Below, piece after piece: positions 5,962 to 20,940 of a stretch of 64,000 nucleotides of DNA (its first letter is position 1; the number at the start of each line of letters is the position of its first letter). The position numbers and the translations under genes were made by a program. Source of the stretch: Hwanghaeella grinnelliae (GTDB taxonomy: Bacteria > Pseudomonadota > Alphaproteobacteria > UBA8366 > Aestuariispiraceae); contig NZ_SADE01000001.1 in the NCBI RefSeq assembly GCF_004005845.1, positions 1,860,001 through 1,924,000 on the forward strand, read 5' to 3'. The notes below the pieces were generated by a model. The model searched no databases. It was given only the letters and a program-made list of their open reading frames with translations, and was not told the DNA's origin.

Positions 5962-6732
5962 ATGCTGCTGCTGATCGATAGCGGAAACACGAACGTGGTT
6001 TTCGCCGTGCATGACGGTGAGAAGCCGCTGGCATCCTGGCGTTGTGGCAACGACCCGCGCCGGACGGCCGACGAATACGCCGTCTGGCTCAGCCAGTTGA
6101 TGTCCTTGAATGGCTATACGTTCGACGACATAGAAACCTGTGTGGTCGCCAGTGTCGTTCCCGAAACACTCTTCAACCTGAAACGGTTGTGCGAAAAATA
6201 CGTACCTAAGCCCACGCTTGTCGTAGGGGAAAAGACTACAAAACTGGGCATTGAGGTCCTCATAGACCGGCCCGAACAGGTCGGTGCCGACCGTCTGGTC
6301 GGGGTGATCGCTGCGCATGTGAAATATGGTGGTCCGTTGATGGTGCTGGACTTCGGGACGGCAACCTCTTTCGACATCGCGGACGCGGACGGTAACTTCC
6401 GTGGCGGGGTTTTGGCGCCGGGCGTGCATCAGTCGGTCGAAGCATTATATATGGCGGCACGGAAACTTCCGCGCGTTGAGATCGCACGGCCGGAAACCGT
6501 TATTGGAAAGGCCACCGTTCCGGCCATGCAATCCGGTGTCTATTGGGGTTACCTTTCCATGGTGGAGGGGTTGATTTCCCGGATTCAGAATGAATTCGGC
6601 GAACCGATGAAAGTGATCGCGACCGGGGGACTAAGTGCCCTGTTCGCAGACGCGACAGACGCTATCCATGTGACCGACCCTGACCTGACATTGACGGGAT
6701 TGGTTGAAATTTATCGACGGAATAGCCGGTGA
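5962..6732 (+). CDS. coaX: type III pantothenate kinase
   Basis: Phosphorylates pantothenate to 4'-phosphopantothenate, the first step of coenzyme A synthesis; cytosolic. It is 256 residues, the normal length for the CoaX type, which belongs to the ASKHA fold and is not related to CoaA. Motifs are DSGNTNVVFAV (6-16, phosphate binding), GADRLVG (108-114) with the catalytic Asp, and DFGTATSFD (130-138). Type III enzymes need a monovalent cation and resist CoA feedback. The gene lies 55 bases before the RNase J gene, probably in the same transcript as birA. Confidence 0.96.
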   Translation: MLLLIDSGNTNVVFAVHDGEKPLASWRCGNDPRRTADEYAVWLSQLMSLNGYTFDDIETCVVASVVPETLFNLKRLCEKYVPKPTLVVGEKTTKLGIEVLIDRPEQVGADRLVGVIAAHVKYGGPLMVLDFGTATSFDIADADGNFRGGVLAPGVHQSVEALYMAARKLPRVEIARPETVIGKATVPAMQSGVYWGYLSMVEGLISRIQNEFGEPMKVIATGGLSALFADATDAIHVTDPDLTLTGLVEIYRRNSR

Positions 6733-6787
6733 TCGGGGGAAGGGCGCAGCCCTGTCTTTCCGCATCAAGGCCGGCGTTAAGAGGTTT

Positions 6788-8467
6788 ATGAGCAAGCAAA
6801 ATTACGAGGAGTCCGGCGAGCCCGGCTCCGACGAAATCATTTTTGTGCCGCTGGGCGGTACCGGTGAAATCGGGATGAACCTCAATCTCTACGGCCATGA
6901 CGGCAAGTGGATGATGGTCGATATGGGGATCAGCTTCGACGACGGAAGAACACCCGGCGTCGATGTTATAATGCCCGATCCGGCCTTTATCGAGGAACGG
7001 CGCAAGGATCTTGCCGGCCTGGTGCTGACCCATGCCCATGAAGATCATTTGGGCGCGGTCCAGTACCTGTGGGACGGCTATGATTGTCCCATCTATGCAA
7101 CGCCGTTCACCGCGGCCATCCTGCGCCGGAAATTGCACGAGAACGGCTTCACCAGTTTGCCGAAGATCATCGAAATTCCGATGTCCGGGCATTTCCAAGT
7201 CGGACCATTTGATATCGAGTTGATCACGCTCACCCATTCCATTCCCGAGCCGAATGCCTTGGTGATCCGCTGTGCGGCGGGGACCGTGATGCATACCGGG
7301 GATTGGAAGCTGGACCCTGACCCGAAAGTTGGGCCGAGCACCGATGAAGCGGCATTGATCCGGGCGGGCGAGGAAGGTGTCCTCGCCATGATGTGCGATA
7401 GTACCAATGCCATGAACCCAGGCTCCTCCGGGTCGGAAGGCGATGTTCGGGACAACCTCGTCGAACTGGTCGGAACGCTGAAGGGCAAGGTAGCTATTGC
7501 CTGTTTCGCGTCTAACATCGCGCGGATCGAAAGCGCGGTGAAAGCGGCGGAAGCCTGCGGCCGCAAAGTCGCCCTTATCGGCCGGTCGATGCACCGTATG
7601 ACCGAAGCGGCGCGGGAAACAGGCTACCTCACCGATTTGCCGTCCTTCATATCGGATGAGGAGGTTCACCGCTTACCGCCAGACAAAGTACTGTTGATTT
7701 GTACCGGCAGCCAAGGGGAACCGCGCGCAGCGCTTAGCCGTATTGCGCGAGATGACCACCCCTATGTCTCATTGGGTGAAGGGGATTCTGTCATCTTCTC
7801 TAGCCGGGAGATTCCCGGGAACGAGGTCGGAATCGCGCGTCTTCAGAACCAGCTGACCGAATTGGGCGTCACCGTCATCACCGCGCGTGAACACGATATC
7901 CATACCTCCGGCCATCCCAACCAGGATGAATTGACCCAGATGTATCAATGGATCCGGCCCAGCATCGCCGTGCCGGTTCATGGCGAAGTGCGGCATCTGA
8001 CCGCGCATGCGGAACTGGCGCAGCAGTGTCAGGTGCCGCATACCATTGTTGCGTTCAATGGCGATGTATTGCGGTTGAGCAAGAGTGACGGTGTCTCTGT
8101 CGTCGACGAGGTCTATGCCGGACGTCTGGCCCTGGACGGTGACCGTCTGGTGCCGTTCGACAGTCACGGCATTCGGGAGCGTCGGCAGATTGCCTGGAAC
8201 GGATGCGCCGTGGTCAGTGTAACGCTGGACCGTAAAGGCGGTTTGGCAGCGACGCCGGCAGTGACCATTTTCGGCCTGTTCGATCCGGATGATCGTGACA
8301 AGGACGGTATTACCGCCGTCGTTGAGCGAGTGATCGGCAAGGCCAACGGTAAAGCCAAGTCCGACGACAAACAGATCGAGGAAGCGGTGCGGATCGGTGT
8401 ACGCCGGGAATTGCAGTCGATCACCGGTAAACGGCCGCCTGTATCGGTTCATGTGACCAGGATATGA
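6788..8467 (+). CDS. rnj: ribonuclease J
   Basis: Metallo-beta-lactamase-fold ribonuclease with 5'-3' exonuclease and endonuclease activity, which matures rRNA and turns over mRNA in alphaproteobacteria. From the ATG at 6788 it is 559 residues. The zinc site HAHEDH is at 82-87, preceded by FVPLGGTGEIGMNL (about 19-32), and HTGDWKLDP and the later SGHPNQDE segment follow as in RNase J. A longer reading from 6704 would overlap coaX and adds residues unlike the family. The 6788 ATG has GAGG just upstream and gives the usual N-terminus, so it is preferred. Next to mce, as is common in the class. Confidence 0.95.
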   Translation: MSKQNYEESGEPGSDEIIFVPLGGTGEIGMNLNLYGHDGKWMMVDMGISFDDGRTPGVDVIMPDPAFIEERRKDLAGLVLTHAHEDHLGAVQYLWDGYDCPIYATPFTAAILRRKLHENGFTSLPKIIEIPMSGHFQVGPFDIELITLTHSIPEPNALVIRCAAGTVMHTGDWKLDPDPKVGPSTDEAALIRAGEEGVLAMMCDSTNAMNPGSSGSEGDVRDNLVELVGTLKGKVAIACFASNIARIESAVKAAEACGRKVALIGRSMHRMTEAARETGYLTDLPSFISDEEVHRLPPDKVLLICTGSQGEPRAALSRIARDDHPYVSLGEGDSVIFSSREIPGNEVGIARLQNQLTELGVTVITAREHDIHTSGHPNQDELTQMYQWIRPSIAVPVHGEVRHLTAHAELAQQCQVPHTIVAFNGDVLRLSKSDGVSVVDEVYAGRLALDGDRLVPFDSHGIRERRQIAWNGCAVVSVTLDRKGGLAATPAVTIFGLFDPDDRDKDGITAVVERVIGKANGKAKSDDKQIEEAVRIGVRRELQSITGKRPPVSVHVTRI

Positions 8468-8499
8468 TCCGGTCTGACGAATAGACGTGGAGGGATGAA

Positions 8500-8904
8500 A
8501 TGATCGGACGGTTGAATCACGTGGCGATTGTCGTGCCTGACCTGGAAGAGGGGGCACGGGTCTATCGATCGACCCTGGGGGCCAAAGTCTCCGAGGCGGT
8601 GGATCTGCCGGATCACGGGGTCACCACGGTCTTCGTCGAACTGCCCAACACCAAGATCGAACTTTTGCACCCGCACGGGGAAGGATCGCCGATTGCCAAG
8701 TTCCTTGAGAGCAATCCGTCCGGCGGCATGCATCATGTCTGCTACGAAGTCGATGATATCATCGCCGCGCGGGACAAGTTGGAATCGGATGGCATGCGCG
8801 TTCTGGGCGACGGCGAACCTAAGATCGGGGCGCATGGCAAGCCTGTGTTGTTCCTGCATCCCAAGGATTTCATGGGCACGCTCGTCGAACTCGAACAGGT
8901 CTGA
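8500..8904 (+). CDS. mce: methylmalonyl-CoA epimerase
   Basis: Converts (2S)- to (2R)-methylmalonyl-CoA in propionate and branched-chain catabolism, feeding methylmalonyl-CoA mutase; cytosolic. It is 134 residues in the vicinal-oxygen-chelate fold, made of two paired modules. Likely metal ligands are His7 (in LNHVAIVVPD), a histidine of GGMHHVCYEVDD (78/79) and Glu130 (in GTLVELEQV). A good GGAGGGA ribosome binding site lies 5-6 bases before the ATG. It is 32 bases after rnj and 12 before the DUF1467 gene, the usual alphaproteobacterial neighbours. Confidence 0.94.
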   Translation: MIGRLNHVAIVVPDLEEGARVYRSTLGAKVSEAVDLPDHGVTTVFVELPNTKIELLHPHGEGSPIAKFLESNPSGGMHHVCYEVDDIIAARDKLESDGMRVLGDGEPKIGAHGKPVLFLHPKDFMGTLVELEQV

Positions 8905-12721: not shown

Positions 12722-13969
12722 TTGTTCGCACCCGTCGAACGGTTGGTCGCGTTCCGCTATCTGCGGGCCCGGCGCCAGGAAGGGTTCATTTCGGTCATCG
12801 CGTGGTTCTCGCTGGTCGGGATCGGCTTGGGCGTCGCCACGCTGATCATCGTTATGGCGGTGATGAACGGCTTCCGGCACGAATTGTTGAGCCGCGTTCT
12901 GGGCCTCAACGGCCATATCAGCGTTACCGCCTATCGGTCGGAAGCGATTACCGAATTCGACTTCCTGGCCGATGCGATCCGGAAGATCGACGGCGTGGTC
13001 GAGGTGACCCCGCTTGTCGAGGGGCAAGTGATGGCCAGCGCGAATAATCTTGCCTCCGGCGCGGTCGTTCGCGGTGTGCGGCGTGAAGATTTCCTGGGAC
13101 GGGACCTTCTGCGCAACGCGATCAAGCAAGGGTCGTTGGATGGTTTCGACGAGGGACGCGGCGTTCTGATCGGCGGCCGAATGGCGGCCAGAATGGGGCT
13201 TGGCGTCGGTGACAGGATCACATTGATCTCGCCCAAGGGGTCGCCGTCGGCCTTCGGAACCGTGCCGCGCATGAAGACTTATTCGGTGGCGGGGATCTTC
13301 AATGTCGGCATGTATGAATACGACAACACCTACATTTACATGCCGCTCGCCCAGGCGCAGCTCTATTTCCGCTACCCGAACGCGGTCAGCGGCTTCGAAG
13401 TCATGGTGGAGGATGCCGACGGGGCGCTAGAGCTTCGGCGCGATGTCGCCGCGGAAGTCGGCAGCAAGGCCCAGGTGCTCGACTGGCAACGGGTGAATTC
13501 AAGCTTCTTCACGGCCCTGCAGGTCGAACGCAATGTGATGTTCCTGATCCTGACGCTGATAATCATGGTGGCCGCGTTCAACATCATTTCCAGCCAGATC
13601 ATGCTGGTGAACGACAAGGCCAAGGGCATTGCCATCCTGCGCACCATGGGCGCCAGTCGGTCGATGTTGCTGCGCATCTTTTTCATGACCGGCAGTTCCG
13701 TCGGCGTGATCGGCACGGCGGCAGGGGCGGCGTTGGGCATATCCTTCGCGCTTAATATCGAGACCATCCGGCAATGGATCCAGGCGCTTTCCGGCACCGA
13801 TCTTTTCAGCGCGGAGATCTATTTCCTGTCGCAATTGCCGGCGCGGATCGATTCCGGGGAGACGATCTCCGTCGTGGTCATCGCGCTTACGCTCAGTTTC
13901 CTGGCCTCGATCTATCCGGCCTGGCGGGCGGCGCGGCTCGATCCGGTGGAAGTGCTGCGCTATGAGTGA
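12722..13969 (+). CDS. lolC: lipoprotein-releasing ABC transporter permease
   Basis: Inner-membrane permease of the Lol system, which extracts outer-membrane lipoproteins from the inner membrane and hands them to LolA. From a TTG at 12722 it is 415 residues and begins [18 protein letters not shown], matching the family N-terminus; GAGTAGGG lies just upstream. The open frame continues far upstream inside proS, but that part is out of frame with proS and not like LolC. The first helix is at about 24-46 ([16 protein letters not shown]), then a large periplasmic MacB-like domain (about 50-260) and three C-terminal helices. In alphaproteobacteria one LolC/E-type permease often replaces the LolC-LolE pair. 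It overlaps lolD by 8 bases. Confidence 0.93.
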
Positions 13970-14642
13970 CGCCGTTCTCTCTCTTCAGGCGGTCGACCGG
14001 GTCTATACCGGTATCGGCCAGCCGCTGCAGGTGCTGAAAGCGGCCTCGCTCGATATTCGCCCGGGTGAACTGGTCGGCATGGTCGCGCCCAGTGGGGCCG
14101 GCAAATCGACCCTGCTGCACATTGCCGGTCTGCTCGAATACCCCGATGGCGGGGACGTCCTGGTCGGTGGCCAATCCTGCGCCGCCATGGACGATAACGG
14201 ACGCACCGGGGCACGCCGCGACAGCCTGGGCTTCATCTATCAGTTCCATCACCTGCTGCCGGAATTCACGGCGCAGGAGAATGTGGCCCTGCCGCAGATG
14301 CTGGCCGGCCGGTCCAAGCGGCAAGCCAATGACAAGGCCGCGCAGCTGCTGGATTCGGTTGGGTTGAAAGAACGCATGAAGCATCGCCCGGCGCGCCTGT
14401 CCGGCGGCGAACAACAGCGCGTTGCGATCGCGCGCGCCATTGCCAACGACCCGCTCGTCCTGCTGGCAGACGAGCCGACCGGCAATCTCGATCCCGGCAC
14501 CTCGGCCGTCGTCTTCGACATGCTGCTGGGCCTCGTCCGCGACCGCGGCATGTCGGCGCTCATCGCCACCCACAACCCGGAACTCGCCAAACGCATGGAC
14601 CGGGTGGTGACGTTGAAAGACGGCGGGTTGGTGTCCGTCTAG
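13962..14642 (+). CDS. lolD: lipoprotein-releasing ABC transporter ATP-binding protein
   Basis: ATPase of the Lol lipoprotein export complex, on the cytoplasmic face of the inner membrane. The 226 residues show Walker [10 protein letters not shown] (42-50), the Q-loop region [18 protein letters not shown] (about 91-108, with the Phe-His-Leu-rich LolD motif), ABC signature LSGGEQQ (146-152), Walker B LLADEP (167-172) with catalytic Glu171, and an H-loop histidine in ATHNPELA. The start ATG overlaps the end of lolC, showing translational coupling. Six bases after its stop lies the stop of a convergent minus-strand gene. Confidence 0.95.
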
Positions 14643-14648
14643 TGGTCC

Positions 14649-17252
14649 TTAGTCATTGTGTCGGAGATGGACGAGATCATCAATATGGTCATCCATGTTG
14701 TTACCGTTCTTCCGTAGGAAGGTCACGAGCACCTGCCGGGAGTTAGGGGTGAGATGCAAGGAATCAGCTGCTGTGGCATCATCTTCAAGAGTCTTCACTT
14801 TCAGAAGTGCGGCTTTCGAGGGATCGGTTAGGACCTGTCGATAAAGGACAGGCCACCGTTCCTCAAAGGCCGCCCACTTGCCGACGACCCTAGGAGGGAT
14901 GCCAGCTTTGTCGGTTTCCTCAAGTTTCAACAAGCCACGGCGATTTAAGACGACCAGCAGCATCTGAATGCGGTTTAAGACGCGCTTTATGGTTCTCGGG
15001 CGAGGTTGGATGTAGTCAAGAGCTTCTTCTCGCGCCATTCGATATGCCATTGAGTCGGAGGCAAGTTGTATGTCTTTCCGCAGTTCGACAATTTCTGACA
15101 ATTCATCTTGAGTAATGGTAGCGGTATCTGCTTTGGGTGAGTTTTGACCTGATACTGTTAGTTCTTTGTCCAAGTCGTATAGATTCCGACGTCTAATTCG
15201 TCTCCAAACAAATATGTAGATTCCGTAGGCGGAGACTATGCCGAACGCAATTGGAAGAAGTATGCCATTGGTTAAGAGTGCATAGATCCCCAGTGTTTCC
15301 AAATCGCCAGAAAGAAATAGCCCCCAAATGGCTTGAACGCCGATCACCAAAACAAAAAGTGAAAAACCGCCCAGGACAGCCCAACCTATGAACCTCAGGA
15401 ATTGGTCGTTGCCATACTTTCCAAACAACTTGTTTCGGAATGTTTCCTTCGCATTTTCGGAACTCACCGATGCAGTTGAATCGGAGGCTGGCCCATTTAT
15501 TTCTGGATTCGCTCCAAATAACGCGCGCCGCGCAACTTCTCGCCTGATTGGTGGCAGGTGAAATTCAAGCTGAACAAGCTTCCGCATGAACTCGTGCCCA
15601 AAACCTGGATCTGGCTCAGAGCCGACTTTATAGCGGTCATTCAGCACCAGCCTTTTTGCACGGGCAAGTTTTTCATACTTGACCTCCACGCATTGGCAGA
15701 GCACTTCCAAATCGGTCATGATAACGACCACGACTGGTGGAAAAGTCAGCAGTTGATTTATAGTCTCTAATAGGTCAACGGCTCGAGGGGGACGGCAACG
15801 TTCCAAGTCATCGACGAAGATGACGAACTTTCGGCCCATAGGTGTTACTTCCTCGATCAACCGTTGCAATTCGTTGCGCGCAAGGTCCAGCGAGCCGTGT
15901 TGGGCTCCAATAGAACTATGCTGGACATATTCTGAAACGGCGGGCCGCGCTGCTAGCCAACGATGCAAGCACTCCCACAATGAGCCAATCACTGCGGACG
16001 CGAAAATCGTAAAAAGGACCATAGATACTGGACCAAGCGAGATAGTAGTTTCGCCATTCTCTGGGGAACTGGTGTTATCGGTAGGACTCGTGAACTGATT
16101 TTGGAACCACTTAAGGATTTCCTCAATTTGTGCGGGGAACGCAAGGAAGCAGAACCCAAAAAAGGCAATAAGGACCGCAATCAATATGCTACGCCTTTTC
16201 CAACGCGCGCGGGTCGCAGCCTTAGGGGATAGAAAGCTGTCCCTGAGGGGACGTTTCATTCTGCTTAGCCAAGTGCGCGCTTGATCTGCCTCTCGCGCGA
16301 CCGAGGCAATAAGCGCGCCAGGCAAACGCTCTGCATCGTCGTGGAGCCAAGCATTGAAGTAGAGAGTTTGGTGCGGAAGAACATCATGCCCTGCCTGTTC
16401 GTCCAACCGCTTCTTGACCAAGTTCGCGACCGAAGTCTTTCCAACACCCCAGGGAGCGTCGATAGCTATCAATAGAGGCTCATTGACCTTCTCGTTCCGG
16501 ATTACGGCGGCAATTGCATCGGCATAGTCGCTATAGCCGTACAGGTCCTCCTCATCGCCTTTAATTGGGCGATCGCCTGTCGGCTCGGCGTGAAAACTGG
16601 GAATAGCTGTGGCTGTCGGCCTACCGACCTCAGGGCTCCCTGTTGATACTGATTCCGCTTTTAAGTGATGCTCCCGAAATGGACTTTCTTCGAAATCCGA
16701 CCGAACCAATTGGGCCAAAGAGAAGGCTCTTACTTTGTCTGCCAATTCGATAGTACTTCTTGACGGCAAATTGTTCGGAACCGCTACCGTTACTTGAAAC
16801 CGTCGTTCGCTGGTGCTGACGCGAGATTTTGCCAATGCCTCAAGGATGGCTGTGCAGCTTTCCATAGGGGAGAATTGTGCTTCACCAGTACCGAGTAGCG
16901 GGATCCAGACATCTATGGGGCTATTGGTAGAGTCTGCTGAGTGGTTCAGGTCAAATGCGTCGAGGCCCCCGGAAATGTTTTGGGTAAACCAGTCGGGAAT
17001 TCCAGTTTGTCCGAATGAAAGTATTGTGACGATGAAAACTAAGGATCGAGTCGATCCTGTTTCAGGTTCGTGACTTTGAAGAATCCCATAACCACGCTTC
17101 AGATCTAAGGTTTCAGAAAGGTCCGGCTCTTCACCGAGGCTCCTCAGGATATGAGAAGATAGCAGCCCTGGTGTTCCGTTCATGTCTACGGGAATGAGAA
17201 TAGCGTCGCCAGAAGGTGTTTCTGATCTTGTGATATTGAGTTCTTCAATCAT
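14649..17252 (-). CDS. KAP-family P-loop NTPase, membrane-anchored, with macrodomain-like N-terminus
   Basis: From the ATG at 17252 it has 867 residues. Seen in order: residues 1-180, a domain with GDAILIPVD (about 15-23) and VWIPLLGTGE (about 115-124) that resembles a divergent macrodomain (inference); Walker A DAPWGVGKTS (265-274); two hydrophobic helices (about 353-372 and 405-430); Walker B FVIFVDDLERCRPP (476-489) typical of KAP NTPases; QLEFHLPPIRREV (about 561-573); two more helices (about 620-648 and 653-685); and PRPRTIKRVLNRI (about 751-763), the KAP sensor-like segment. KAP proteins include PifA, which excludes phage T7 (known). The gene is AT-richer than its neighbours (26 G+C in the 60 bases 15181-15240) and splits the common lolD-dnaE order, so it was probably acquired. 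No ribosome binding site is evident; its exact role is unknown. Confidence 0.85.
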   Translation of the reverse strand: MIEELNITRSETPSGDAILIPVDMNGTPGLLSSHILRSLGEEPDLSETLDLKRGYGILQSHEPETGSTRSLVFIVTILSFGQTGIPDWFTQNISGGLDAFDLNHSADSTNSPIDVWIPLLGTGEAQFSPMESCTAILEALAKSRVSTSERRFQVTVAVPNNLPSRSTIELADKVRAFSLAQLVRSDFEESPFREHHLKAESVSTGSPEVGRPTATAIPSFHAEPTGDRPIKGDEEDLYGYSDYADAIAAVIRNEKVNEPLLIAIDAPWGVGKTSVANLVKKRLDEQAGHDVLPHQTLYFNAWLHDDAERLPGALIASVAREADQARTWLSRMKRPLRDSFLSPKAATRARWKRRSILIAVLIAFFGFCFLAFPAQIEEILKWFQNQFTSPTDNTSSPENGETTISLGPVSMVLFTIFASAVIGSLWECLHRWLAARPAVSEYVQHSSIGAQHGSLDLARNELQRLIEEVTPMGRKFVIFVDDLERCRPPRAVDLLETINQLLTFPPVVVVIMTDLEVLCQCVEVKYEKLARAKRLVLNDRYKVGSEPDPGFGHEFMRKLVQLEFHLPPIRREVARRALFGANPEINGPASDSTASVSSENAKETFRNKLFGKYGNDQFLRFIGWAVLGGFSLFVLVIGVQAIWGLFLSGDLETLGIYALLTNGILLPIAFGIVSAYGIYIFVWRRIRRRNLYDLDKELTVSGQNSPKADTATITQDELSEIVELRKDIQLASDSMAYRMAREEALDYIQPRPRTIKRVLNRIQMLLVVLNRRGLLKLEETDKAGIPPRVVGKWAAFEERWPVLYRQVLTDPSKAALLKVKTLEDDATAADSLHLTPNSRQVLVTFLRKNGNNMDDHIDDLVHLRHND

Positions 17253-17364
17253 GCTCAATAATACGACATTAACGGGAAAATGATCCAGAATAGTCTTGCA
17301 GTGGGATCGTAATTCAAGATCTGATTTCGGATGGAAGCGGCCTGACCCTCAGGTGTTGGTCTAG

Positions 17365-17373
17365 TTATCCACA
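17365..17373 (+). promoter_or_regulatory. consensus DnaA box upstream of dnaE
   Basis: TTATCCACA at 17365-17373 is an exact match to the DnaA-box consensus. It lies 76 bases before the dnaE start, in the spacer between dnaE and the divergent KAP gene. A single box could let DnaA-ATP adjust transcription of dnaE or the KAP gene; whether it is bound is not known. Confidence 0.5.
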
Positions 17374-17448
17374 GAAAATTCCGGTTGTACCCGGGTTGCA
17401 CAGGCGGACCGGATTGGCAGGGGAATAGGACTCTGCCAGCTTAAGATC

Positions 17449-20400
17449 ATGTCAAAAGCCGACTTCGTACATCTTCGCGTTCATTCCGCCTATTCGCTCT
17501 CCGAAGGGGCGATCCGGATCAAGGATCTGGTGAAGCTTTGCAGCGAGCAGGGCATGCCCGCCGTTGCGGTCACGGATACGAACAACCTGTTCGGCGCGCT
17601 TGAGTTTTCACTCGCCGCGCGCGGGGAAGGCGTGCAGCCGATCCCCGCCGTGCAGTTGAGCCTGCGGGCGCCGGACAAACGGCAGGCGAACAGCATGACC
17701 CAGGCGCCGCGCCCGGACCAGGTCGTGCTGCTAGCCCAGAACGATGCCGGCTACGCCAATCTGATGCGGCTTTCCAGCAAGGCCTTCCTCGGGACCGGTC
17801 CGGCCGAGGAGTCCCAGGTCGACATGGATGACCTCGCCAACTGGAACGAAGGGGTGATCGCGCTGACCGGCGGCATCCGCGGGCCGGTCGGGCGCTTGCT
17901 GCTGGAAGGTCAGGAGGACGAGGCCGAAGAGGTTCTGAAACGACTGGCGGAAATCTTCGAAGGCCGCCTCTACGTGGAGCTGATGCGCCACGGGCTGGCC
18001 GATGAGGACCGGATCGAACCGACCTTGATCGACATGGCCTACCGGCTGGACCTGCCGCTGGTGGCGACCAATGAATGCTTCTTCACCGACAAGAAGATGT
18101 ACGAGGCGCATGACGCGTTGCTCTGCATCGCGGGCAGTACCTATGTGTCGGAGTCCAACCGCCGGCGCTTGACCGAGGATCACCGGTTCAAGACCGCCGC
18201 GGAGATGCGGGAGCTGTTCGCGGACATACCCGAGGCGGTCGACAATACCCTGGTCATCGCGCGACGCTGTTCCACCATGGTGGAGAAGAAGAAGCCGCTG
18301 CTGCCGGTCTATAACAAGCTGGATGGCAGAAGCGAGGCGGAAGCCCTGCGCGACATGGCGGTTGAAGGCCTGAAGCGGCGGCTTGAAGACCAGGTCTTCA
18401 CCGAGGAGATGGACGCGGCAGAGCGTCAGGAAACGGCCGACAAATACAGGACAAGGCTGGAATACGAGTTGGACGTCATCGCCCAGATGGGGTTTCCGGG
18501 CTACTTTCTGATCGTTGCCGACTTCATTCAGTGGGCGAAGGACCGGGATATTCCGGTCGGGCCTGGTCGTGGGTCTGGTGCCGGCTCGGTCGTCGCCTGG
18601 GCATTGACCGTCACCGATCTGGACCCGTTGCGCTGGGATTTGCTGTTCGAACGCTTCCTGAACCCGGAACGCGTCAGCATGCCGGATTTCGATATCGACT
18701 TCTGCCAGGATCGCCGGGACGAAGTGATCCGCTATGTGCAGAAGGAATACGGCGAGGATCAGGTCGCGCAGATCATCACTTTCGGTAAGCTTCAAGCCCG
18801 CGCCGTGTTGCGCGACGTCGGCCGCGTCCTGCAAATGCCCTATGGCCAGGTCGACCGGATCTGCAAACTGGTGCCGAACAACCCGGCCAAGCCGGTGACC
18901 CTGCAGCAGGCGATCGATGGGGAGCCGATGCTGCAACAGATGAAGGTGGAGGACCCGGCGGTCAGAACCTTGATCGAGACGGCGCTGCCGTTGGAAGGGC
19001 TGTATCGTCACGCCTCGACCCACGCGGCAGGTGTCGTTATCGGCGACAGGGCGTTGACCGATTTGGTGCCGCTTTATCGAGACCCGCGTTCCGACATGCC
19101 GGTCACCCAGTTCAACATGAAATATGTCGAACAGGCCGGGTTGGTGAAGTTCGACTTTTTGGGTCTGAAAACCCTGACCGTGATTGCCCGGGCGAAGGAG
19201 TTGATCGACGCGCGCGACGACCGCAAGGGCGATCCTCTCGACATTTCGACGCTGCCGCTGGATGACGCGCGGACCTATCAAATGCTGTGCAAGGCTGAAA
19301 CGGTCGGCGTGTTCCAGCTGGAAAGTTCCGGCATGCGGGACGTGCTGAAAAAACTGCGGCCTGACCGTTTCGAGGACATCATCGCCGTCGTGGCGCTGTA
19401 TCGTCCGGGTCCGATGGAGAACATCCCGACCTATATCCGCCGGAAACATAAGGAAGAGATTCCGACCTATCCGCATGACAAGCTGGAACCTGTATTGCGG
19501 GAGACCTTCGGCATCCCGGTTTATCAGGAGCAGGTCATGCAGATGGCCCAGGTCCTGGCAGGCTATACATTGGGCAGCGCCGACCTGTTGCGCCGTGCCA
19601 TGGGTAAGAAGATCCAGGCGGAGATGGACGCGCAGCGGAAAGCCTTCGTCGAAGGGGCGAAGGAGCACAGCCAAGTCGATGCGCCGCAAGCAAATGAAAT
19701 CTTCGACCTGATCAATGCTTTCGCGGGCTATGGCTTCAACAAGAGCCATGCGGCGGCCTATGCGCTCGTCGCCTATCAGACCGCCTGGCTGAAGGCCAAT
19801 TATCCGGTCGAATTCCTGGCCGCCTCTATGACGCTGGACCTGCATAATACGGACAAGCTGAACACGTTCCGCTCGGAAATGGACCGCCAGAATATCGAAC
19901 TGCTGCCGCCGGATATATGCCATTCCCAGGTGCGGTTTTCCGTCGAGCAGACCGATACCGGGGAGCGCAAGGTCCGTTACGCCCTCGCTGCCTTGAAGAA
20001 TGTCGGTCAACAGGCGATGGATTCCATCGTGCGGGAGCGGGAAGAGAAGGGGCAGTTCGCCGATCTCTTCGATTTCGCGAACAGGCTGGATACCAGATCC
20101 GTGAACAAGAAGGCGTTGGAGAACCTTGCCAAGGCAGGCGGCTTCGACAGTCTGAATCCCAACCGGCGGCAGGTTTTCGAATCCATGGATGTGATCGCGG
20201 CCCATGCCGCCTCCGCCTTGGCGGACCGGGAAAGCAACCAGGTTAGCCTGTTCGGTGACAGCATGGGCGCTTCGACGCGCCCGAAACTGCGCGACGTGTC
20301 CGATTGGCCGCAACAGATGCGCCTGAACCAGGAATTCGACGCCATCGGGTTCTATCTTTCGGCGCATCCGCTGGAAGCCTATGCCAAGACCTGCCGAAAA

Positions 20401-20940
20401 CTGGGGGTCGTGAACTGGCGGGATGTGATCTCCGGGCGTTTGCGCAGCGGTCAGGTACTTCTATCGGGCATCGTCGGCGGCAGGCGCATCATGACGACGT
20501 CACGCGGGTCCAAGATGGCCTTCGTGCAGATGTCGGACTCGACCGGGTCCTATGAAGTGACGATGTTCCAGGAGGTTCTCAACAGCGCCTTGGAATTGTT
20601 GGACGCCGGGGAGCCGTTGGTGGTGACCGTCGACGTTCAGGTCCGGGGCGAGGGGGAGGAACCACGCCTTACCGCGCTGTCGGTCAAGTCGCTTGAGGAT
20701 GAAGCGGCCCATGCAGCCGATGGGATGGAGGTCTATCTGGCGACGCCGGATTGCGTTGAGCACCTCTCCAATCTGTTGCATCAGCATGGCAAACGCGGCC
20801 GGGGCCGGGTGACGATTCAGTTGAAAGATCGTCCTGAAGGGGATATCGAAATCGAATTGGGCGAAACCTTTAAAATTGACGGCCGCTTGCGTCAGGCTGT
20901 TAAAGCAATTCCCGGTATTATCGACGTTCAGGACCTTTAA
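17449..20940 (+). CDS. dnaE: DNA polymerase III alpha subunit
   Basis: Replicative DNA polymerase of the C family. The 1163 residues match DnaE1. The N-terminal PHP domain starts with FVHLRVHSAYSLSEGA (His8, His12). The palm has GPGRGSGAGS (about 374) and the catalytic aspartates in PDFDIDF (412-418), with a third in VKFDFLGL (Asp569). Later come NKSHAAAYALVAYQTAWLKA (fingers and thumb end), the tandem helix-hairpin-helix part and an OB-fold near 1005-1060 (LLSGIVGGRRIMTTSRGSKM), then a C-terminal tau-binding region. It usually follows lolD directly; here the KAP gene intervenes, and its promoter must lie in the 196-base spacer with the DnaA box. Confidence 0.97.
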   Translation: MSKADFVHLRVHSAYSLSEGAIRIKDLVKLCSEQGMPAVAVTDTNNLFGALEFSLAARGEGVQPIPAVQLSLRAPDKRQANSMTQAPRPDQVVLLAQNDAGYANLMRLSSKAFLGTGPAEESQVDMDDLANWNEGVIALTGGIRGPVGRLLLEGQEDEAEEVLKRLAEIFEGRLYVELMRHGLADEDRIEPTLIDMAYRLDLPLVATNECFFTDKKMYEAHDALLCIAGSTYVSESNRRRLTEDHRFKTAAEMRELFADIPEAVDNTLVIARRCSTMVEKKKPLLPVYNKLDGRSEAEALRDMAVEGLKRRLEDQVFTEEMDAAERQETADKYRTRLEYELDVIAQMGFPGYFLIVADFIQWAKDRDIPVGPGRGSGAGSVVAWALTVTDLDPLRWDLLFERFLNPERVSMPDFDIDFCQDRRDEVIRYVQKEYGEDQVAQIITFGKLQARAVLRDVGRVLQMPYGQVDRICKLVPNNPAKPVTLQQAIDGEPMLQQMKVEDPAVRTLIETALPLEGLYRHASTHAAGVVIGDRALTDLVPLYRDPRSDMPVTQFNMKYVEQAGLVKFDFLGLKTLTVIARAKELIDARDDRKGDPLDISTLPLDDARTYQMLCKAETVGVFQLESSGMRDVLKKLRPDRFEDIIAVVALYRPGPMENIPTYIRRKHKEEIPTYPHDKLEPVLRETFGIPVYQEQVMQMAQVLAGYTLGSADLLRRAMGKKIQAEMDAQRKAFVEGAKEHSQVDAPQANEIFDLINAFAGYGFNKSHAAAYALVAYQTAWLKANYPVEFLAASMTLDLHNTDKLNTFRSEMDRQNIELLPPDICHSQVRFSVEQTDTGERKVRYALAALKNVGQQAMDSIVREREEKGQFADLFDFANRLDTRSVNKKALENLAKAGGFDSLNPNRRQVFESMDVIAAHAASALADRESNQVSLFGDSMGASTRPKLRDVSDWPQQMRLNQEFDAIGFYLSAHPLEAYAKTCRKLGVVNWRDVISGRLRSGQVLLSGIVGGRRIMTTSRGSKMAFVQMSDSTGSYEVTMFQEVLNSALELLDAGEPLVVTVDVQVRGEGEEPRLTALSVKSLEDEAAHAADGMEVYLATPDCVEHLSNLLHQHGKRGRGRVTIQLKDRPEGDIEIELGETFKIDGRLRQAVKAIPGIIDVQDL

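Follow-up and report, generated by a model that had tools for sequence, protein, structure and literature searches.

KAP is described as an NTPase that is able to replace STAND modules in counter-invader systems (PMC8195603). QatA, the KAP protein of the antiphage operon qatABCD, appears to assemble into 7- or 8-mers and is not needed against some phages (PMC13279940). In TM-macro Thoeris, ThsA uses its macro domain to bind ADPR and IAD and oligomerises, and membrane perturbation by it has been proposed (PMC11204291). PrrC, of the EcoprrI system, stays latent within a type IC complex until infection releases it (PMC3874165). PMC8195603 mentions KAP and macro domains in separate passages without joining them, and a narrow exact-phrase search of open-licence PMC articles (bioRxiv excluded) found no paper that joins the two.

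Here we describe a gene predicted to encode both domains in one protein, located in a 64-kb stretch of the Hwanghaeella grinnelliae genome (the window). A first-pass annotation, made from the letters alone, had placed a KAP NTPase gene on the opposite strand between lolD and dnaE, and this was confirmed by the open reading frame at 14649-17258. It had missed the macro domain at the N-terminus and the siting of relatives in restriction operons. The features of the locus are as follows.

13962-14642, + strand: lolD, left flank (ABC_tran match; name from the first-pass annotation and gene order)
14649-17258, - strand: macro-KAP NTPase gene, 869 aa, TTG start, ATG alternative at 17252
14982-14999, - strand: PRTIKR, residues 754-759
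15234-15392, - strand: predicted second membrane helix pair, residues 623-641 and 657-675 (hydropathy)
15507-16535, - strand: Pfam KAP_NTPase match, residues 242-584
15798-15821, - strand: Walker B, IFVDDLER, residues 480-487
15987-16187, - strand: predicted first membrane helix pair, residues 358-376 and 406-424, between Walker A and Walker B (hydropathy; helices in the low-confidence model)
16431-16457, - strand: Walker A, APWGVGKTS, residues 268-276
16536-16691, - strand: macro-KAP linker, about residues 190-241, mostly low confidence (pLDDT <50 at 187-235 in the full-length model)
16704-17258, - strand: predicted N-terminal macro domain, residues 1-185 (AF2, Foldseek, VIA, PDB profile)
16884-16910, - strand: VWIPLLGTG, residues 117-125, with G123, T124 and G125 invariant in 22/22 rows
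17365-17373, + strand: TTATCCACA, 75 bp before dnaE
17449-20940, + strand: dnaE, right flank

The window protein has Walker A and B motifs, inserted membrane-helix pairs and a PRxxKR segment in common with the KAP NTPases (PF07693), PifA and QatA included, but differs in its N-terminal macro domain, ahead of the part matched by the PifA model. That model matched in two stretches (E 1.7e-27), the best covering model positions 6-140 of 720; residue 227 pairs with model position 6, leaving the model without an equivalent of the N-terminal domain. The kinship to PifA that had been proposed thus holds for the KAP part, which is common to QatA and PDC-S20 as well, and does not extend to the N-terminal domain. 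The genes on either side are lolD and dnaE, so that none of qatB, qatC and qatD, nor rdrB of RADAR, adjoins it. RADAR RdrA (8hr8) was a Foldseek match to the low-confidence full-length model (E 3.6e-4, 369 columns), a weak likeness with an rmsd of 15.3 and a TM of 0.21. Thoeris TM-macro ThsA likewise joins a macro domain to membrane helices in an antiphage protein, but a KAP NTPase is not part of its description in the available portions of PMC11204291, and the window host, in which TIR_2 (PF13676) gave no match at E 0.001, has no obvious maker of a Thoeris-type signal. PrrC is encoded inside a type I restriction operon, as are five relatives of the window protein, but is an anticodon nuclease (PMC3874165), and the window copy lies outside any such operon.

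Pfam gave no match for residues 1-221 of the window protein, Macro (PF01661) included, and no PADLOC model matched the N-domain; in four relatives PF01661 scored 13.5-15.1 bits, below its cut-off of 22. The AF2 model of residues 1-185 had a pLDDT of 89.6 and a pTM of 0.87. Its top Foldseek match was macroH2A1.1 (E 1.5e-7), and the hydrolases YmdB and MacroD2 were also among the fold matches. VIA-align, run on Foldseek's own candidates, superposed the model on macroH2A1.1 with a Z of 16.3 and an rmsd of 2.9 over 163 residues. Two N-domain alignments were used: A2, comprising the window protein, a Rhizobium plasmid protein and a protein from genome G225, and A3, whose 22 rows comprise the window, the 19 loci described below and a second copy each from L067 and L069. 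These second copies were recovered by a profile built without them, at E 1.9e-20 and 2.4e-17 (1000 sequences). Against the PDB, listed to E 10, the A3 profile gave eight matches, led by three PARP9 sequences (E 4.8e-6, to macro 2, up to 8.6e-6) and followed by TTHA0132 (E 0.0015); the others were two PARP14 sequences and macroH2A, at E 0.16 to 0.52, and a LysM protein at E 0.25. Since the PDB profile, AF2, Foldseek and VIA all show a macro fold, residues 1-185 are, as judged from sequence and modelling, a divergent macro domain beyond the reach of the Pfam cut-off.

The residues invariant in A3 are P120, G123, T124, G125 and S134, and the segment VWIPLLGTG at 117-125 is presumably the phosphate-loop motif of the macro fold. 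Position 18 is acidic in nearly all rows (D in 18/22, E in 3/22, N in 1/22), and conservation of this residue and of the GTG loop is what retained ADP-ribose binding would predict. MacroD-type hydrolases have an Asn and a run of glycines in the loop after strand 2. In A3 the commonest form of this loop is P/S-x-D/N-x-x-G-T-P-G-x-L, in which only two glycines (20/22 and 21/22) and an L/I (21/22) are well kept. The loop also differs from that of macroH2A1.1 and PARP9 macro 2, which have the same fold as residues 1-185 but are eukaryotic and 12-17% identical to the window domain. Judged from sequence, the pocket would be better suited to reading an ADPR-like ligand than to hydrolysis.

The KAP part was clearly matched by Pfam (PF07693, E 3.2e-31, 109.1 bits against a cut-off of 20). 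Walker A at 268, Walker B at 480 and PRxxKR at 754 agree with the complete set of KAP landmarks first reported at 265-274, 476-489 and about 751, and hydropathy finds both of the helix pairs said to be inserted in the NTPase. Helix pairs inserted in this way occur in some branches of the KAP NTPase family. The P, R, K and R of PRTIKR are invariant in all 20 aligned members of the macro-KAP family. In the full-length AF2 model, which is of low confidence (pLDDT 67.1, pTM 0.38) and was used for domain limits only, the second pair corresponds to helices 600-649 and 653-703. Two weaker hydropathic stretches, 496-514 and 508-526, overlap with the strand that follows Walker B and probably belong to the core. 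PDB searches with the full protein and with its profile gave weak matches, mostly to other NTPases.

Within its own genome the window protein matched only itself, and a single-sequence scan of genome_contigs with it found no relative. The same collection scanned with A2 gave 149 pattern matches, from which 19 loci in Proteobacteria and Bacteroidota were confirmed, all with KAP above the Pfam cut-off. The G225 protein, which has the window-type N-domain and a KAP domain, is one of these (L070), and another (L066) is a near relative of the Rhizobium plasmid protein, which also has KAP and whose N-domain is 31% identical to the window's over residues 15-180. With a further member from genome G1179 (L089), the loci other than the window number 13 in Bacteroidota and 7 in Proteobacteria, an assignment based in part on record titles. 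The window protein is just 21-29% identical to its relatives in local BLAST alignments. The family is rare and sporadically distributed: members were found in 2/367 genomes of the window's class, its own included, and in 2/395 of the order of genome G785, G785 included, and A2, a weaker profile, matched only the window's own genome among 398 drawn from the phylum. No relatives were found in phages or in two scans of viral_contigs. Weak N-domain matches in two genomes, G271 and G241 (E 5e-4 and 7e-4), were dropped; the class search of 367 genomes with the better profile lists neither, which does not show whether those genomes were included.

The architecture varies between the two conserved parts and in the membrane helices. 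A Clp_N domain lies between macro and KAP above cut-off in L066, L076 and the Rhizobium plasmid protein, and below cut-off in L073 and L082. Eight Bacteroidota members (L067, at 8463-8882, and L071, L072, L074, L078, L079, L080 and L081) have a domain of about 120 aa between macro and KAP, for which no weighty Pfam or PDB sequence match was found; an EVE-like reading made by eye had no support in the PDB profile search or in Pfam on the eight, and the domain was left unnamed. By hydropathy, L082 shows no membrane helix at threshold, some relatives show only one, and all 19 loci lack the second pair that the window protein has after Walker B and ahead of PRxxKR, so that membrane action may not extend to the whole family.

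The window gene differs from its surroundings in composition. It has a GC of 0.503 and a GC3 of 0.509, the lowest of the 37 ORFs of at least 200 aa in a mechanical list for the window, itself included (mean 0.695, sd 0.056). The island holds 1350 G+C in 2698 nucleotides, and the contrast first reported with the flanks, 26 of 60 at 15181-15240 against 43 of 60 at 18541-18600, was exact. As the first-pass annotation had stated, no clear ribosome binding site is visible by eye upstream of the TTG or of the in-frame ATG two codons after it. Promoter-like sites in the insert region numbered 1, against 2.1 in shuffles, and terminator-like sites 7, against 3.2, all 7 within the gene. No direct repeats were found in 14500-17460, and the two inverted pairs there both lie within the gene.

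Comparison of the lolD-dnaE spacers in relatives, the check that the first-pass annotation had proposed, showed that the macro-KAP gene is absent and that the contents of the gap vary. No full-length relative was found in the 42 other genomes of the order, six of which gave partial matches confined to residues 224-579; of the 43 genomes sampled, the window's own included, 21 have a completeness of 90% or more and contamination of no more than 5%. In G005 and G003, which lack the gene, lolD and dnaE are neighbours, separated by about 140 bp and about 50 bp, respectively. The gap is occupied by a second lolC copy in the same-genus genome G004 (L049) and by unrelated ORFs, judged by eye only, in G007 and G001. 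In a survey of 29 genomes from other families of the order, some with contigs that end sooner, lolD lay at most 1.5 kb upstream of dnaE in 11 of the 16 loci examined. Among the 13 other genomes of the window's taxonomic family, 7 had no lolD in the stretch examined ahead of dnaE, so that the adjacency is common and not universal. The odd composition, the absence from relatives and the variable gap together support the reading, made from sequence, of the gene as an acquired single-gene insertion. A phage or viral origin was considered and rejected, with no phage match and no relatives in the two viral_contigs scans, as was a plasmid origin, for which there were four weak plasmid records, one of them, the Rhizobium replicon, having the N-domain too.

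The window copy has no defence neighbour, its adjoining genes being lolD and dnaE. In four Bacteroidota loci (L069, L075, L078 and L081), gene calls, Pfam and tblastn gave the order hsdM-[macro-KAP]-hsdS-hsdR, with the macro-KAP gene 80, 3, 1 and 2 bp from hsdM, respectively; L078 has two extra ORFs before hsdS, and its hsdR runs off the locus. The G1179 member, found by profile after the idea had formed and with its surroundings not known beforehand, has the same order. The gene thus lies between hsdM and hsdS in 5 of 13 Bacteroidota members and beside an hsdM remnant in one more, L067, where hsdM is reduced to its two ends (7552-7929) directly before a complete macro-KAP gene; here the insert appears to have outlived its restriction chassis. 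Relatives of these Hsd proteins were absent from the stretch examined in the other 7 of 13 Bacteroidota and in 7/7 proteobacterial loci. Elsewhere, the macro-KAP gene of L073 (Caballeronia) is flanked by genes for a resolvase and an AAA/TPR protein, and in L082 (Pseudomonas) a patatin-like phospholipase gene (6658-7914) ends 35 bp upstream; neither the patatin nor the AAA/TPR protein has a PADLOC match.

The control set comprised 15 KAP loci that do not belong to the family, drawn from the matches in 148 Flavobacteriales genomes and examined in stretches of 14 kb (one of 4.7 kb), with the 2 rows of the G785 family member left out. None of the 15 had the macro domain or relatives of these HsdM, HsdS and HsdR proteins, which were the only Hsd proteins sought. 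The difference is a modest one (one-sided Fisher test, p 0.013 for 5/13 against 0/15; p 0.017 for Flavobacteriales only, 4/10 against 0/15).

The restriction genes of the five embedded loci are related to one another, with HsdM 71-87% identical, and their inserts are 26-58% identical. The rankings disagree: L069 and L078 have HsdM proteins 87% identical and inserts 29% identical, whereas the corresponding values for L075 and L089 are 72% and 58%, which indicates that insert and chassis have separate histories. The L069 genome has a second type I operon (L124, 1894-10134), whose HsdM is 93% identical to that of the macro-KAP operon and whose hsdM-hsdS slot holds an 811-aa protein matching nSTAND3 and PADLOC PDC-S73 (model 1-747 of 752), a candidate defence NTPase. 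A search of 186 genomes with hsdM (E 1e-150) for further slot contents returned the L069 genome alone, with its two copies.

We consider it somewhat probable that the product of the window gene is an antiviral sensor-switch of the KAP NTPase class, anchored in the membrane, with the N-terminal macro domain as its sensor. At the level of sequence and model, the macro fold, the intact NTPase motifs, the predicted helix pairs and a recurrent macro-KAP architecture found repeatedly in restriction operons all point this way, and an antiviral sensor is probable because some distant relatives sit inside phage-defence operons. For the macro-KAP family as a whole a defence role is probable, and genomic context supports it. 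Further support comes from the discordant histories of insert and chassis, the PDC-S73/nSTAND3 protein in the sister operon, the patatin gene next to the Pseudomonas member, and the precedents of QatA and ThsA. Several observations count against this reading: the window copy stands alone between housekeeping genes and is only 21-29% identical to its relatives; its host genome has no TIR_2 match; the control difference is modest, and the five Hsd chassis are related to one another; 7 of 13 Bacteroidota and all 7 proteobacterial loci lack such hsd genes in the stretch examined; the membrane helices vary across the family; and QatA is not required against some phages. The earlier proposal of an acquired defence role is supported by the odd composition, absence from relatives, variable gap and type I restriction operons around relatives; that of a stand-alone defence gene fits the window copy and not the whole family.

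In the mechanism that we propose, the macro domain would bind a ligand that arises during infection, either an ADP-ribose-type nucleotide or an ADP-ribosylated molecule. Ligand binding would lead the KAP domain to load or hydrolyse ATP and to assemble at the inner membrane, where the clustered membrane helices could harm or arrest the cell before phage release. Relatives embedded in restriction operons might act as a second line behind the type I enzyme, or as its guard.

The sensor domains of STAND-like NTPases recognise a phage protein or structural pattern, and the macro domain might do the same in place of binding a nucleotide, with the KAP part executing defence. The varied loop after strand 2, the absence of a TIR_2 partner in the host genome and the presence of non-catalytic readers among the solved fold matches (macroH2A1.1; PMC11204291) would all suit this, but the retention of D/E at position 18 (21/22 rows) and of the GTG loop (22/22) speaks for a nucleotide pocket, and we regard a pattern sensor as rather unlikely. 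Macro domains often cleave ADP-ribosyl bonds (PMC9503650), and the protein could instead be an active hydrolase that removes ADP-ribose placed by phage or host, with KAP as regulator. The Asn-rich, multi-glycine loop of the MacroD type is replaced here, with two conserved glycines, which makes this very improbable in our view, although it is not decisive, YmdB and MacroD2 being among the fold matches.

Eukaryotic KAP proteins are membrane scaffolds, and a physiological scaffold at the membrane, lying beside dnaE by chance, would account for a window copy without a defence neighbour. It would fit poorly with a sporadic distribution (2/367 in the class, 2/395 in the G785 order) and repeated embedding in restriction operons, and we think it quite unlikely. 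The TTG start and the lack of a ribosome binding site clear to the eye could also be signs of a decaying, non-functional acquired gene; with 869 codons free of internal stops, intact catalytic motifs and a confident macro fold, there is little to recommend decay, to which we give the least credence. The sensor-switch reading would supply, in the macro domain at the front end, a concrete and testable ligand class for the activation of KAP NTPases in defence, and recurrence in an exchangeable type I operon slot points to restriction-linked back-up immunity beyond PrrC. More tentatively, and as a plausible rather than a probable generalisation, macro-KAP proteins may be an unrecognised class of membrane-anchored antiphage receptor that responds to ADP-ribose-type ligands as its gate and moves both as single genes and as interchangeable inserts in the hsdM-hsdS slot of type I operons; if true, nucleotide signalling, KAP switches and restriction would be connected within a single module.

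The sequence TTATCCACA at 17365-17373, which we take to be the DnaA-box consensus, raises the possibility of DnaA control of dnaE. It likewise precedes dnaE in G004 and G005 and so appears native to the dnaE upstream region, and the insert therefore probably spans between the lolD stop and 17365. Counting both strands, exact TTATNCACA occurs a single time in the 64-kb window, at 17365-17373.
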